Positions 21,091 to 25,610 of a DNA stretch of 27,053 bases are shown here, one piece after another. This DNA is from a virus. Each line of letters starts with the position of its first letter. Position 1 is the stretch's first letter. The notes under the pieces were generated by a model. That model did no database searches. It was given only the letters and a program-made list of their open reading frames with translations, and was not told the origin of the DNA. The stretch is taken from the IMG/VR virus record IMGVR_UViG_3300029263_000579, positions 1 through 27,053 of that record, one strand, 5' to 3'. The position numbers and the translations under genes were made by a program.

Positions 21091-21309
21091 ATGTTTGAAA
21101 AAATCGAGAGACTGTTTACCACGGATCTCCAAGAATACGTTAAACTGCATGGTGGTTCTTACATAGATGCCATTATAGGAATATGTGAAGAAAATGAAAT
21201 TGAACCAGCCGCTGCGGCTAAGTATTTATCAAAACCAATAATCGAGAAGATACAGGCAGAAGGAGAAATCCTTAATATGCTACCTTCTACACCAAAATTA
21301 CCAATTTAA
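21091..21309 (+). CDS. 33: gp33-like late-transcription co-activator, 72 aa
   Basis: The segment YIDAIIGICEENEIEPAAAAKYLS, then KPIIEKIQAEGEILNMLPS, lines up with the core of T4 gp33 (Y-L-E-A...EEN-x-I...AKF...IIEKIQ-x-EA...N-L-L). In T4, gp33 bridges the beta-flap of host RNA polymerase and the gp45 sliding clamp to activate late promoters. The clamp contact in T4 is at the extreme C-terminus, and this protein ends LPSTPKLPI without the T4-type hydrophobic tail, so clamp binding needs checking. It is shorter than T4 gp33 (112 aa), lacking most of the N-terminal extension. In T4, genes 33, 59 and 32 are adjacent; here 33 and 32 are neighbours and 59 is absent. Confidence 0.8.
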   Translation: MFEKIERLFTTDLQEYVKLHGGSYIDAIIGICEENEIEPAAAAKYLSKPIIEKIQAEGEILNMLPSTPKLPI

Positions 21310-21402: not shown

Positions 21403-21409
21403 AATGCAT

Positions 21410-22294
21410 ATGAGTTTTTCAGATTTTAAGAACAAGTCCAATTCAAGTCTAGAAAGTCTCCAGAAGAAAATGGAGAACATGGACAAGACAAACAACTACA
21501 AGGATGACCGCTTTTGGCGTCCTGAACTGGATAAGGCTGGTAACGGTTTCGCTGTTATTCGTCTTCTTCCAGCCGCAGACGGAGAAGACATTCCGTGGGT
21601 TAAGTTGTACAATCATGGATTCAAGGGACCAGGTGGCTGGTTTATCGAGAATTCACTGACTACTCTTGGTCAGAAGGATCCAGTCTCTGAGATGAACAGT
21701 AGACTTTGGAACAGTGGAATTGAGAGTGATAAGGATATCGCTCGTCAGCGTAAGCGTCGTCTCAGTTATATCTCTAACATTCTTGTGGTGAGTGATCCTG
21801 CAAACCCTCAGAACGAGGGCAAGGTTTTCCTCTATAAGTATGGTAAGAAGATCTTCGACAAGATTCAGGAGTCAATGAATCCAGAGTTTCAGGACGAAGA
21901 GGCAACCAACCCCTTCGATTACTGGAAGGGTGCAAACTTCAAGTTGAAGGTGCGTAAGGTTTCTGGATTTGTCAATTATGACAAGTCAGAATTTGAATCT
22001 GTATCACCTCTCTTTCATGGAGATGATGACAAGTTGGAAAGTCTGTGGAAGACTCAATACAAGTTGGATGAATTTGTAAGTGAGTCGAACTTCAAGTCGT
22101 ATGACGAACTCAAGGCTCGTCTCGACGCGGTTCTTCAAGGTGATGAACGTGGTGGGGAAACTACTGCGGAGTCTGACAATGTGGAGAGTGTTTCACACAG
22201 TAACGCTTCAGAAAAGGAAGAGGACTTCAAGCCGAAGGTTGACGAGGGTACGGACGCAATGTCCTACTTCAATCAACTTGCAAACGAAGATTGA
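21410..22294 (+). CDS. 32: gp32 single-stranded DNA-binding protein, 294 aa
   Basis: The T4 gp32 core is clear: an N-terminal basic cooperativity region (SLESLQKKMENM), then RFWRPELDKAGNGFAVIRLLPA (35-56), NHGFKGPGGWFIENSL (68-83), RRLSYISNILVVSDPANPQNEGKVFLYKYGKKIFDKI (116-152) and FDYWKGANFKLKVRKVSGFVNYDKS (169-193). The C-terminus is acidic and Ser-rich, ending in FNQLANED, as in the T4 protein-interaction tail. It coats single-stranded DNA in replication, recombination and repair. The T4 zinc ligands are mostly gone: one His aligns but the three Cys are replaced, as I recall for cyanophage gp32. I chose the second ATG (MSFSDF) for ribosome-site spacing; the first, at 21404, would add two residues. 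Confidence 0.95.
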   Translation: MSFSDFKNKSNSSLESLQKKMENMDKTNNYKDDRFWRPELDKAGNGFAVIRLLPAADGEDIPWVKLYNHGFKGPGGWFIENSLTTLGQKDPVSEMNSRLWNSGIESDKDIARQRKRRLSYISNILVVSDPANPQNEGKVFLYKYGKKIFDKIQESMNPEFQDEEATNPFDYWKGANFKLKVRKVSGFVNYDKSEFESVSPLFHGDDDKLESLWKTQYKLDEFVSESNFKSYDELKARLDAVLQGDERGGETTAESDNVESVSHSNASEKEEDFKPKVDEGTDAMSYFNQLANED

Positions 22295-22320: not shown

Positions 22321-22353
22321 GGAGAGTGGGTTTATCCCACTCTCCTTTTTTTT
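22321..22353 (+). terminator. strong terminator after gene 32
   Basis: A perfect 10-bp stem GGAGAGTGGG/CCCACTCTCC with a 5-nt loop is followed by eight T. It ends one base into the stop codon of the convergent tape-measure gene. On the minus strand no T run follows, so it works mainly for gene 32. Confidence 0.92.
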
Positions 22354-24019
22354 AACTTGCATTCCTACCGCTGCGGCCAGGAATAGAACCCGCGGGTTGT
22401 TGATCGTATGAAGATCTTCGTAATTCTTCAGTGCTAGAAGGTCTAGTTTCTAACTCTCTAGTTGGTAGAGACGCTTCTTGATTTGTTTGGGGAGATTGTT
22501 GATTGATTATAGTTACCTGACCAGGACTTTCTCGATTGGTGGTCGCACGATCGCCTGGTTGCATTTCATATGATTCAAACTCTGAATTCGACATAGTTCT
22601 GGACATAGAAGGAGTAGAAGTCACAGGTCCCATATCCATTGATGGGTTTACCATCTCTTCTGGTAAATCAACTAAATCACTGGTCAGCGAACCTATTCTA
22701 TATTCTTTAGCAGGTATTAAACTATCACCACCACCGACATGCTCTTGCCCAATTAACTCTCTATGTTTTCCTGCAAGTTCTGAGAAGGATGAGGCACTTA
22801 TTTTTCTCATACCACTTACTGGATTTTCAAAAGTAGAAGTCATCATTCCCCCTATAAACTCTTGTTCTGTGATTGCAGACTCTCCTCCTGATACCCTTCC
22901 TTTATTCACTTCTTCAAATACACCCGATGCTTCATTTTCATAAAAATCTGCCATCTGTTTGTGGTATTGATTTCCCGACATACCATTGAATAATTCCATC
23001 AGGTTGTTTCTTTGTTTCATCTTAAACTCTGGACTTCCTTCTTTATATCCAAGGGCATTCATCGTATCTTGACTGTGACGATTTGTTTCGTCTGCTGCAT
23101 CAAGGCCGTAGAATAATCCTTCAGATGCCACTAAGAATGGAAGTCCCCAAGGAGATTTGAAGAGCATTCTGGCTGTTCCCCTCATCAATGCCCGTGATCC
23201 TGTCTTTACGTTTCTGGCTACGTTCATGGTTCGAGCAGAGTTTGCAAAAGATGTTCCAAACTGTGATGTTGCTGCACCTACACCTCTGACCTGATTCATC
23301 ATTCTCTGTATAGGATTGATAGATCTGAATGCGTTAGCACCTAATGAACCTGTCGTTTGTGTTGATATTCTTCCAACACCAAGAGATAACTCTCTTGCAA
23401 GTTTAGCTTCTCGAACCATATTTGGTAGTCTACTGACAAAACTTGTAAGTGATTTTCCTGTTGCTGCCATTAACTGTGTAAAACTTTTAGTTCCATCTAT
23501 GTACGGTTTTAATCCAACTCCCATTGGTAAAAATGCTCTAAATGGGCTTAGTATTCTGGCTAAAATTCCACTGCCACGGCCAACGGCGAGGGCGCCTTTG
23601 CCAACGGCGAGGGCGCCTAGGGCACTAGTAATTGGATTTCTTTTAATAATGCCAGGAAGAAAAGAATCAGTACTACCGTCAGGATCACCGTCAGGACTGG
23701 TAGTAGGATTGTTAGCACCACCCAAACCAACTGCACCACCAACTGCACCACCACCAAGACTACCGACTATTCCCTTTCTTCTTCTCTCTAAATCTTCTTC
23801 TCGTCTCTCTGATCGTGTGGTTTTGTCCACATCATCTGATCCTAGAATAACGGTCTTGGGGTTGTATATGTTTATTACTGATTTTTTAATTTCTCTCGAC
23901 ACTTCAAATTTATTGGTGTCTGCTAAAATTACATCACGGGTGTCATCATTTAAACCTTGGGTAGAAGATTTAGATGAAGAACTTTGTGCAGAGATTATTG
24001 ATTCTAGTAATGTTGGCAT
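22352..24019 (-). CDS. candidate tail tape-measure protein, 555 aa
   Basis: It starts in a TAATG overlap with the gp51-like frame, directly downstream of the tail-chaperone-like genes, the usual place of the tape measure. The length is close to that of T4 gp29 (590 aa), which sets a tail of about 100 nm. The sequence has a charged N-terminal helix (RSERREEDLERRRKG, about 68-82) and Gly/Ala-rich hydrophobic stretches (SLGGGAVGGAVGLGG; ITSALGALAVGKGALAVGRGSGI). Further helical segments follow, then a disordered Q/S/T/P-rich C-terminus. The hydrophobic segments fit the membrane-interacting parts of tape measures. Direct similarity to gp29 is not evident by eye, so the call rests on context and composition. 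Confidence 0.6.
   Translation of the reverse strand: MPTLLESIISAQSSSSKSSTQGLNDDTRDVILADTNKFEVSREIKKSVINIYNPKTVILGSDDVDKTTRSERREEDLERRRKGIVGSLGGGAVGGAVGLGGANNPTTSPDGDPDGSTDSFLPGIIKRNPITSALGALAVGKGALAVGRGSGILARILSPFRAFLPMGVGLKPYIDGTKSFTQLMAATGKSLTSFVSRLPNMVREAKLARELSLGVGRISTQTTGSLGANAFRSINPIQRMMNQVRGVGAATSQFGTSFANSARTMNVARNVKTGSRALMRGTARMLFKSPWGLPFLVASEGLFYGLDAADETNRHSQDTMNALGYKEGSPEFKMKQRNNLMELFNGMSGNQYHKQMADFYENEASGVFEEVNKGRVSGGESAITEQEFIGGMMTSTFENPVSGMRKISASSFSELAGKHRELIGQEHVGGGDSLIPAKEYRIGSLTSDLVDLPEEMVNPSMDMGPVTSTPSMSRTMSNSEFESYEMQPGDRATTNRESPGQVTIINQQSPQTNQEASLPTRELETRPSSTEELRRSSYDQQPAGSIPGRSGRNAS
23581..23619 (-). repeat. 21-bp period tandem repeat in the tape-measure candidate
   Basis: Two identical 18-bp blocks (CCAACGGCGAGGGCGCCT) lie 21 bp apart. 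They are much richer in G+C than their surroundings and encode two copies of a GALAVG[KR] heptad. This is probably a recent in-frame duplication. Confidence 0.8.
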
Positions 24020-24192
24020 TAAGATTTATTTTCTTTTTCTTTTGTAATTTCACTTAAAATCATATCAATATAAAGTTTCTTTTCCCAAGGATATAATGAA
24101 TCTAATTCTGATAACGAATATTTGTGCCAGTACATCAGTTCGTGATTCGTTTTATAATAGTCATAAAGACTGGTATGACTATTAATCAGGTA
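24019..24192 (-). CDS. 51: gp51-like frame, expressed as -1 frameshift extension of gp26
   Basis: This 57-codon frame (YLINSHTSLYDYYKTNHELM, then YWHKYSLSELDSLYPWEKKLYIDMIL, then KENKS) begins at the gp26 slippery run in the -1 frame and ends in a TAATG overlap with the tape-measure gene. The only internal ATG is about 20 codons in and would cut the helix that carries YDYYKTNHELM. The S-L-x-[ED]-L-[DE]-x-[LM]-x-P-[WF]-E-[RK]-x-[IL]-Y pattern agrees with gp51-type proteins and with the C-terminal T regions of tail-assembly chaperones. T4 gp51 is needed for baseplate hub assembly. The product would be a gp26-gp51 fusion of about 289 residues. Confidence 0.7.
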   Translation of the reverse strand, partial: YLINSHTSLYDYYKTNHELMYWHKYSLSELDSLYPWEKKLYIDMILSEITKEKENKS

Positions 24193-24199
24193 AAAAAAT
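24155..24199 (-). promoter_or_regulatory. -1 ribosomal frameshift signal (slippery U7 plus hairpin)
   Basis: Read on the minus strand, seven T (24198 down to 24192) in codons GAT TTT TTT form a T-TTT-TTT slippery heptamer three codons before the gp26 stop. Eight bases later a perfect 10-bp stem TAATAGTCAT/ATGACTATTA (24184-24175 with 24164-24155) closes a 10-nt loop. The spacing and stem match known -1 frameshift stimulators. Confidence 0.75.
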
Positions 24200-24887
24200 C
24201 GACTAGATTGTCCAGTTCTCTTTTTATTTGTTTATTACAATGAGGGCATTTATAATTTATGTCGATGACATTTTTTGGTAATTTACCTATATATCCTTCA
24301 GCTATTTTTTTAGCATCTTCAATACTCAAGTCATCTACAAATTTGTTCTTTTCGTCGTCTGTATAATCAGAGAAAACATATACGTTTTCTTTATCAAATA
24401 CAGACTCTATTGCTGAAACGATAGAATTAGTCAACAGATCTTGTTCTGATATTAGGTTATCGTTTATGGAAGACATGGTTGGTGGTTTTAATTGTAAACC
24501 ATAGTCCTCGTTGAGTCGAACCACACTCTCTATCGTTATGTCACTAATTTCTTTCATGTTTTCTAGATTTATCTCTATATCGGTTTTCTCTTCGCAATAC
24601 GGACAACTCAGTGCAGTTTTTGTGGTTTCTCCTACCGACTTTGATCTAATGGAAACCATTAATTTTTCCAGATCAGTAATAGGTAAATCTTTAACAATAA
24701 TATCGTCAAAAATGCATGACTGACATGATCGTAATATTGTCTCCATTACTTCTTTATGTTCTCTTGACTGAACAGCCATCAATAATACTTTTTCTTCTTT
24801 TACTGTGTATGCTCGATATTTGATTGTCTTGTTTATACCAGACAGTTTTACGCTATACGTCGGTATTTCAATTTTTGGTAAACTCAT
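24186..24887 (-). CDS. 26: gp26-like baseplate hub / tail-chaperone protein, 233 aa
   Basis: The start follows a GGAGAAATT ribosome site. The sequence fits the T4 base plate (gp26) family: IPTYSVKLSGINKTIKYRAYTVKEEKVLL at residues 8-36, and LEKLMVSIRSKSVGE in the middle. Two zinc-type CxxC pairs, LSCPYCEEKTDI and YKCPHCNKQI, are spaced far apart. In T4 gp26 belongs to baseplate hub assembly. The gene lies between the tube-like gene and the tape measure and carries a frameshift site at its end, so the short form (233 aa) and the gp26-gp51 fusion would both be made. This is the two-product arrangement of tail-assembly chaperones in lambda-like and P2-like phages. Confidence 0.8.
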   Translation of the reverse strand: MSLPKIEIPTYSVKLSGINKTIKYRAYTVKEEKVLLMAVQSREHKEVMETILRSCQSCIFDDIIVKDLPITDLEKLMVSIRSKSVGETTKTALSCPYCEEKTDIEINLENMKEISDITIESVVRLNEDYGLQLKPPTMSSINDNLISEQDLLTNSIVSAIESVFDKENVYVFSDYTDDEKNKFVDDLSIEDAKKIAEGYIGKLPKNVIDINYKCPHCNKQIKRELDNLVDFFT

Positions 24888-24905: not shown

Positions 24906-25610
24906 TTAGGCTTCAAACCATTCTGTTCCGTCTTCATCTACTGTGATTGGGGCAACTTGGTTTAGCCACCATTCATCTGCTGATCTTTGATGCGTATCTA
25001 TCCATTCTTGTTTTCCTGGCGGGAGAGATTCTCTTGGGAATTGTGGATCTCCTGTTACTGGTAACTCTACGAAGTAACGTCTGAACGATAGTTGTACTTG
25101 CATAACTGCAATGGTGTCTGTAAGACCCTGACCAACAGAGACTCTACCGATTGACTTGGGCCAAACTTCACTTAATCTAATTCTAAACATCTCTTTATCA
25201 TTATCAACTAATGCTGATATGAAAACATTACATCGATATTGATCGGGGTAGTAAAATTCTTGTGTTACTCTGTTTACTGTGCTGTCCATCCAAGTTTCAA
25301 AGAACATTCTTTCTTTAAAATCAGCAGAAACTCGCATTGCTATATCAAGATCTCCGCTGTATGTTGACTCGTATGGGATCTCATCAACAGGCCCTGCTGT
25401 CTTGTATGGTTCGCTTGATATATTTCTGGAGGGGAAAAATATACTTTCTGTTGCGAACTGTAATTCTGTATCGATTTGTGAAGCAGTTCCAAACAAGGTA
25501 GATTTGTTTGCAATGACATTTGGTAGTTTGGGAATATGAAGTCTAAACTTCGTAGGCTTGTATAGCCTAGAAGCCAGTGTAATTGCTTGGTTTATACTAG
25601 GTGCAGGCAT
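24906..25610 (-). CDS. tail-tube-fold baseplate protein (gp54/gp19-like), 234 aa
   Basis: The protein starts MPAPSINQAITLASRLYKPTKFRLHIPKLP and continues through FFPSRNISSEPYKTAGPVDEIPYESTYSGDLDIAMRVSADFKERMFFETWM. It then reads RIRLSEVWPKSIGRVSVGQ, then IAVMQVQLSFRRYFVELP. The F-x-x-W-x, L-x-x-x-WP-x-x-[IV]-G and final V-x-L-x-[FY]-x-Y pattern is that of the phage tail-tube fold, shared by T4 gp19 and by the tube initiator gp54 and cap gp48. Being longer than gp19 and in a baseplate/hub operon, it is more likely the baseplate-tube junction (gp54-like) than the main tube subunit. It starts one base after the stop of the upstream gene. Confidence 0.6.
   Translation of the reverse strand: MPAPSINQAITLASRLYKPTKFRLHIPKLPNVIANKSTLFGTASQIDTELQFATESIFFPSRNISSEPYKTAGPVDEIPYESTYSGDLDIAMRVSADFKERMFFETWMDSTVNRVTQEFYYPDQYRCNVFISALVDNDKEMFRIRLSEVWPKSIGRVSVGQGLTDTIAVMQVQLSFRRYFVELPVTGDPQFPRESLPPGKQEWIDTHQRSADEWWLNQVAPITVDEDGTEWFEA

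Follow-up and report, generated by a model that had tools for sequence, protein, structure and literature searches.

A probable -1 frameshift joining gp26 to a gp51-like extension at a tail assembly chaperone locus of T4-like phages

Background

When a gp51-like reading frame overlaps the end of gp26 in a T4-like phage, do the two frames encode separate baseplate hub proteins, or a short and a long form of one tail assembly chaperone? The question is raised by a stretch of 27,053 nucleotides (hereafter "the window", IMG/VR virus record IMGVR_UViG_3300029263_000579, positions 1 to 27,053), in which gp26 ends on a run of T and a gp51-like frame continues beyond its stop codon (Table 1).

In phage lambda, the short chaperone gpG and a minor long form, gpGT, made by a -1 frameshift, bind the tape measure protein, and neither is present in the virion (PMC5009743). 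For T4, gp26 and gp51 were listed as hub assembly chaperones in a table of a tail review as early as 2010 (PMC3004832). The gp26 and gp51 genes were then described as the tail assembly chaperones of T4-like phages by Vladimirov, Gautam and Davidson (Virology 2022, 566:9-15), according to the passages of PMC10885494 and PMC12846349 that cite this work; both papers refer to it on poly-T slippery sites, and the passage in PMC10885494 also on T4-like phages that carry the short and the long genes separately. Our literature search for a frameshift linked to the T4-like baseplate hub genes returned no direct paper, and this prior art was reached through a citation in PRFect. The first-pass annotation of the window, which knew of no established frameshift for genes 26 and 51, is to be corrected on this point: the chaperone role and the two-gene solution of T4 were published in 2022.

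The gp26-gp51 junction of the window

The product of gp26 matches the PF12322 family with 159.8 bits, above the gathering score of 24.5, and the 3' end of the gene reads CTA GTC GAT TTT TTT ACC TGA. The T-TTT-TTT run that the first-pass annotation had pointed out near the stop is present and in frame as an X_XXY_YYZ heptamer, with ACC TGA next. As a check on chance occurrence, every stop-to-stop ORF of the window with a length of 100 aa or more was scanned for this in-frame pattern. Among the 31 heptamers found, no other than that of gp26 lies within four codons of a stop, and just two others are, like it, followed by at least 50 open codons in the -1 frame.

After the slip, the -1 frame begins with YLINSHTSLYDYYKTNHELMYWHKYSL... 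and stays open for 57 sense codons up to a TAA at 24021-24019, overlapping the short ORF in the -1 frame. Its gp51-like character, also claimed from the letters alone, is borne out by a match of the peptide to phrog_634, "baseplate hub assembly catalyst". The same annotation was right that no start codon lies near the beginning of the extension, since the first ATG, GTG or TTG in the -1 frame is found 53 nt past the first base of the gp26 stop codon.

Table 1. Coordinates of the features of the putative chaperone locus and its neighbours in the window
Feature	Position	Strand	Evidence
Tail tube protein, upstream neighbour	24906..25610	-	phrog_45, 2.5e-21
gp26 ORF, putative short tail assembly chaperone (TAC-N), 233 aa	24186..24887	-	PF12322 T4_baseplate, 1e-46; phrog_150, 1e-48; model pLDDT 92
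Slippery heptamer T_TTT_TTT, in-frame X_XXY_YYZ, then ACC TGA	24192..24198	-	conserved T_TTT_TTN, 61/64 families
gp26 stop codon TGA, frame 0	24186..24188	-	
Downstream hairpin, candidate stimulator (24184-24174 paired with 24165-24155): 11-bp stem, 8-nt loop, 7-nt spacer from heptamer	24155..24184	-	dinucleotide-shuffle P about 0.001
-1 frame extension (gp51-like, putative TAC-C), 57 sense codons and stop, post-slip reading YLINSHTSLYDYY...	24019..24192	-	phrog_634, 4e-15; tail always -1 in 256 loci
555-aa ORF directly downstream, probable tape measure by position	22352..24019	-	no homologue found

Conservation of the overlap and of the slippery site

We assembled 262 gp26 loci from IMG/VR and a phage collection and located the extension by profile. 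A gp51 tail lies 3' of gp26 in 256 of these loci, which form 64 families at 60% protein identity, and every such tail is in the -1 frame. Of the six loci without an extension match, four lie on contigs that break off at or before the junction; the remaining two are those of T4 and of the divergent Vibrio phage VPALA. This distribution bears on the alternative that the overlap arose by chance or that one gene was broken by a sequencing indel during assembly. A single-base change would indeed join the gp26 and gp51 frames, but the arrangement is shared by hundreds of independent isolates and metagenomes. Because it is conserved in this way, which is the decisive argument, we reject chance and assembly error and regard their probability as negligible.

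An in-frame T_TTT_TTN heptamer is found near the gp26 stop in 240 of the 256 loci, as TTTTTTC (193 loci), TTTTTTT (40) or TTTTTTA (7). It is placed 10 nt before the stop in 226 loci, and in each of the 240 an uninterrupted -1 frame runs through it. The 16 heptamer-less loci belong to Ackermannviridae (L017, L022, L184-L196) and to Pseudomonas phage Cygsa01 (L021); they keep both the -1 frame and the stop spacing, with N_NTT_TTC in place of the heptamer, where the shift may use T_TTC or another mechanism. VPALA (L020), which also shows the -1 overlap, likewise has CTT TTC.

Codon choice at the site was compared with synonymous-choice expectations computed from each gene's own codon usage. All 64 families have T at the end of the codon before the Phe pair (39.3 expected), 61 of them use TTT for the first Phe (40.7 expected), and the second Phe is TTC in excess (34 observed vs 20.3 expected); the T excess is absent from control codons. 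These figures also help to decide whether the shifted product could come from slippage of RNA polymerase on the T run, not of the ribosome. A run of seven T, such as that of the window, could permit some transcriptional slippage. However, 193 of the 240 loci carry T6C, a shorter run, and TTC is enriched at the second Phe, two observations that disfavour this origin; moreover, the phasing of the heptamer on the 0 frame is strict, as is needed for tandem tRNA slippage but not for RNA slippage. Transcriptional slippage is in our opinion very improbable.

Coding constraint at the start of the extension

Selection was measured on the first 14 extension codons of the 95 loci that have no ATG, GTG or TTG before +33. 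For the -1 frame, 530 pairs gave a dN/dS of 0.06 and 36 disjoint pairs one of 0.08. The same stretch read in either of the other frames gave about 0.9-1.1, so that the purifying selection is specific to the -1 frame. Since such low values are obtained from loci without start codons there, standard initiation codons cannot account for the constraint at the start of the extension, whereas entry from gp26 can.

The same result weighs on the possibility that gp51 is made on its own as a small protein, from an internal ATG used by re-initiation or coupling, with an incidental overlap. This would agree with the separate gp51 genes annotated in records and with the ATG lying 53 nt after the gp26 stop in the window's phage. 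A start at this ATG would nevertheless cost gp51 19 conserved codons, the stretch that precedes it is under strong -1 frame purifying selection in families without an earlier start codon, and a -1 phase with an open overlap would not recur in every case if the genes were independent. Independent re-initiation is therefore rejected on the dN/dS of the start-less loci, and we consider it highly unlikely. Some free gp51 fragment may be made in addition to the fusion, because gp51 is given its own gene, starting later, in several records; the joined gp26-gp51 CDS is annotated in none of the database records examined.

Candidate stimulators of the slip

Downstream of the heptamer and of the spacer ACCTGAT, the sequences TAATAGTCATA and TATGACTATTA form the stem of a hairpin closed by the loop CCAGTCTT. 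Such a hairpin had been proposed with 10 bp, a 10-nt loop and an 8-nt spacer; it is indeed present, but these three dimensions had to be revised (Table 1). The 40-nt fold has a P of about 0.001 against dinucleotide shuffles, and 6% of the 40-nt segments of the minus strand are at least as stable. Over 61 families, the folding z downstream of the heptamer reaches its lowest mean at offset +6 and differs between lineages, the hairpin being strong in some of them only, including that of the window's phage. With a mean z of only -0.99 at this best offset, universal conservation of the hairpin is unsupported. The comparison of junctions from relatives, which the first-pass annotation had suggested as a check, has thus upheld the slippery run but not a hairpin common to all.

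Upstream of the heptamer, anti-Shine-Dalgarno pairing shows a sharp minimum about 15 nt before it across families. This signal is partly due to a Glu-Gly-Leu motif, but it exceeds what synonymous resampling gives (-6.05 vs -4.30 kcal/mol; GAG 23 vs 10.7 expected). Most families (e.g. L002, L023, L061) have a Shine-Dalgarno-like GAGGG element about 11-18 nt upstream of the heptamer, and the element is weak in the window's phage. An upstream Shine-Dalgarno-like element combined with a slippery heptamer resembles the arrangement of E. coli dnaX; the GAGGG element is possibly a frameshift stimulator of the dnaX type. More generally, a dnaX-like cassette might be conserved at the T4-like chaperone site. 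Its Shine-Dalgarno-like stimulator, lying about 15 nt before the heptamer, would be selected beyond the amino-acid constraint and be weak in some strong-hairpin lineages such as that of the window, and in Ackermannviridae and relatives the heptamer would have been swapped for a weaker N_NTT_TTC at the same place. We see the chances for and against this generalisation as evenly balanced.

Two genes in T4-type phages

In T4 gp51, residues 1-201 match PF12322 and residues 147-246 match phrog_634; the -1 extensions can also be aligned with the C-terminus of T4-type gp51. Judged from these alignments, T4 gp51 is a continuous, single-frame version of the whole gp26-gp51 fusion, and T4 gp26 corresponds to the short form. 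T4 differs from the window in having genes 26 and 51 on opposite strands and no slippery heptamer. The ten T4-type loci of IMG/VR similarly contain both the short and the long genes on opposite strands; no heptamer was found at the 3' end of gene 26 in the nine readable ones or in T4 itself, the tenth contig ending before this position. T4-type phages therefore make the two forms from two genes. Relatives with a separate intact gp51 and no slippery run, which had been named beforehand as evidence against a frameshift, do occur in T4, but as a replacement by gene duplication and not as a counter-example. The abstract of the 2022 study reportedly describes frameshifting as conserved in several T4-like groups, T4 using genes 26 and 51.

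As a separate observation, the gp51 gene of one T4-type phage (L271:3482-4255) consists of two overlapping frames because of a single-base indel in its middle, which is probably a sequencing error or a recent mutation.

Predicted fold of gp26

Fold searches were run with an alignment-based predicted model of the window's gp26 (pLDDT 92). For its first ~85 residues, the best matches were 3fgx (Z 7.3), HK97 gp13 (2ob9, Z 7.1) and YqbN (3klu, Z 6.9), the next row being at 4.8. Z values near 7 are moderate, and of these three structures only 2ob9 is titled tail assembly chaperone; YqbN is a prophage chaperone relative. A chaperone fold is thus recovered, at moderate Z, over the N-terminal ~85 residues of the predicted model. 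HK97 gp13 shares this fold (rmsd 3.9, 84 residues aligned), but with 8% identity, and nothing in its solved chain (107 residues) corresponds to the C-terminal part of gp26. A profile search with gp26 against PDB sequences found no relative among solved chains, and a structural search with a T4-type gp51 gave no chaperone row, the best Z being 4.7 to C1QBP, a result that excludes nothing.

Against a viral library, the best named matches of the gp26 model are phage baseplate hub or hub assembly proteins. The model also matches longer, mostly unannotated proteins (315-438 aa) of jumbo and other myophages (PaBG, phiRSL1, Motura), which may, from these model-based matches, be unrecognised chaperones.

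Genomic context

The ATG of the downstream 555-aa ORF (24019-24017) overlaps the TAA of the extension as TAATG (24017-24021, minus strand), which suggests translational coupling of the gp51 stop to the probable tape measure gene. Profile searches of the PF and phrog type and homology searches found no homologue of this ORF, and phmmer over the collected loci returned its own copy only. A downstream ORF of at least 300 aa on the same strand is found in all of the 141 loci with enough sequence, and genes annotated as tape-measure-like are present one ORF further downstream of gp51 in phiM12 and HTVC008M. The location in front of a tape measure gene, as first annotated, is likely by position, but homology to a tape measure was not found.

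Beside the tail block, on the plus strand, inspection by eye pointed to a likely gp33-like late transcription co-activator and a likely gp32-like single-stranded DNA-binding protein (21091-21309 and 21404-22294).

Proposed function

Sequence comparison makes it very probable that gp26 and the gp51-like frame constitute one tail assembly chaperone locus, with a short form and a -1 frameshifted long form. This reading is strongly supported by the common frame, the slippery site, the coding constraint on the extension, the homology of T4 gp51 to the fusion and the chaperone-like predicted fold, which together sustain the G/GT-type pair advanced in the first-pass annotation. Most ribosomes would read gp26 and stop at TGA, giving the short form. 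A minority would move one base back on T_TTT_TTT, with tRNA-Phe re-pairing in both the P and A sites, and would read 57 further codons to give a long form of 289 residues with the junction VDFF-YLI. We infer stimulation of the slip by the hairpin, as we do the frameshift efficiency and the ratio of short to long form. By analogy with lambda gpG/gpGT, the two forms would bind the tape measure protein as a coat, and binding and recruitment of the tail tube protein would fall to the extension.

Lambda likewise has a short chaperone and a -1 long form. It differs from the present locus in its unrelated protein sequence, in the extra zinc-ribbon-like C-terminal part of gp26, and in its slippery site, which is GGGAAAG in lambda and T_TTT_TTT in gp26.

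Conclusions

The chaperone pair of the window is a well-supported new example of a mechanism and a role already described in T4-like phages: it belongs to the same gene family (gp26/gp51) as the chaperones of the 2022 study, whereas the window's uncultured phage is probably outside that paper. In many cyanophage, pelagiphage and related genomes, gp51 carries the label of a separate "baseplate hub assembly catalyst", no annotation or a wrong start; the comparisons show it to be chiefly the C-terminal portion of a fusion with gp26, and these annotations should be corrected. Finally, the comparisons strongly support the published view in which T4 genes 26 and 51 encode tape-measure chaperones, two genes replacing the frameshift.
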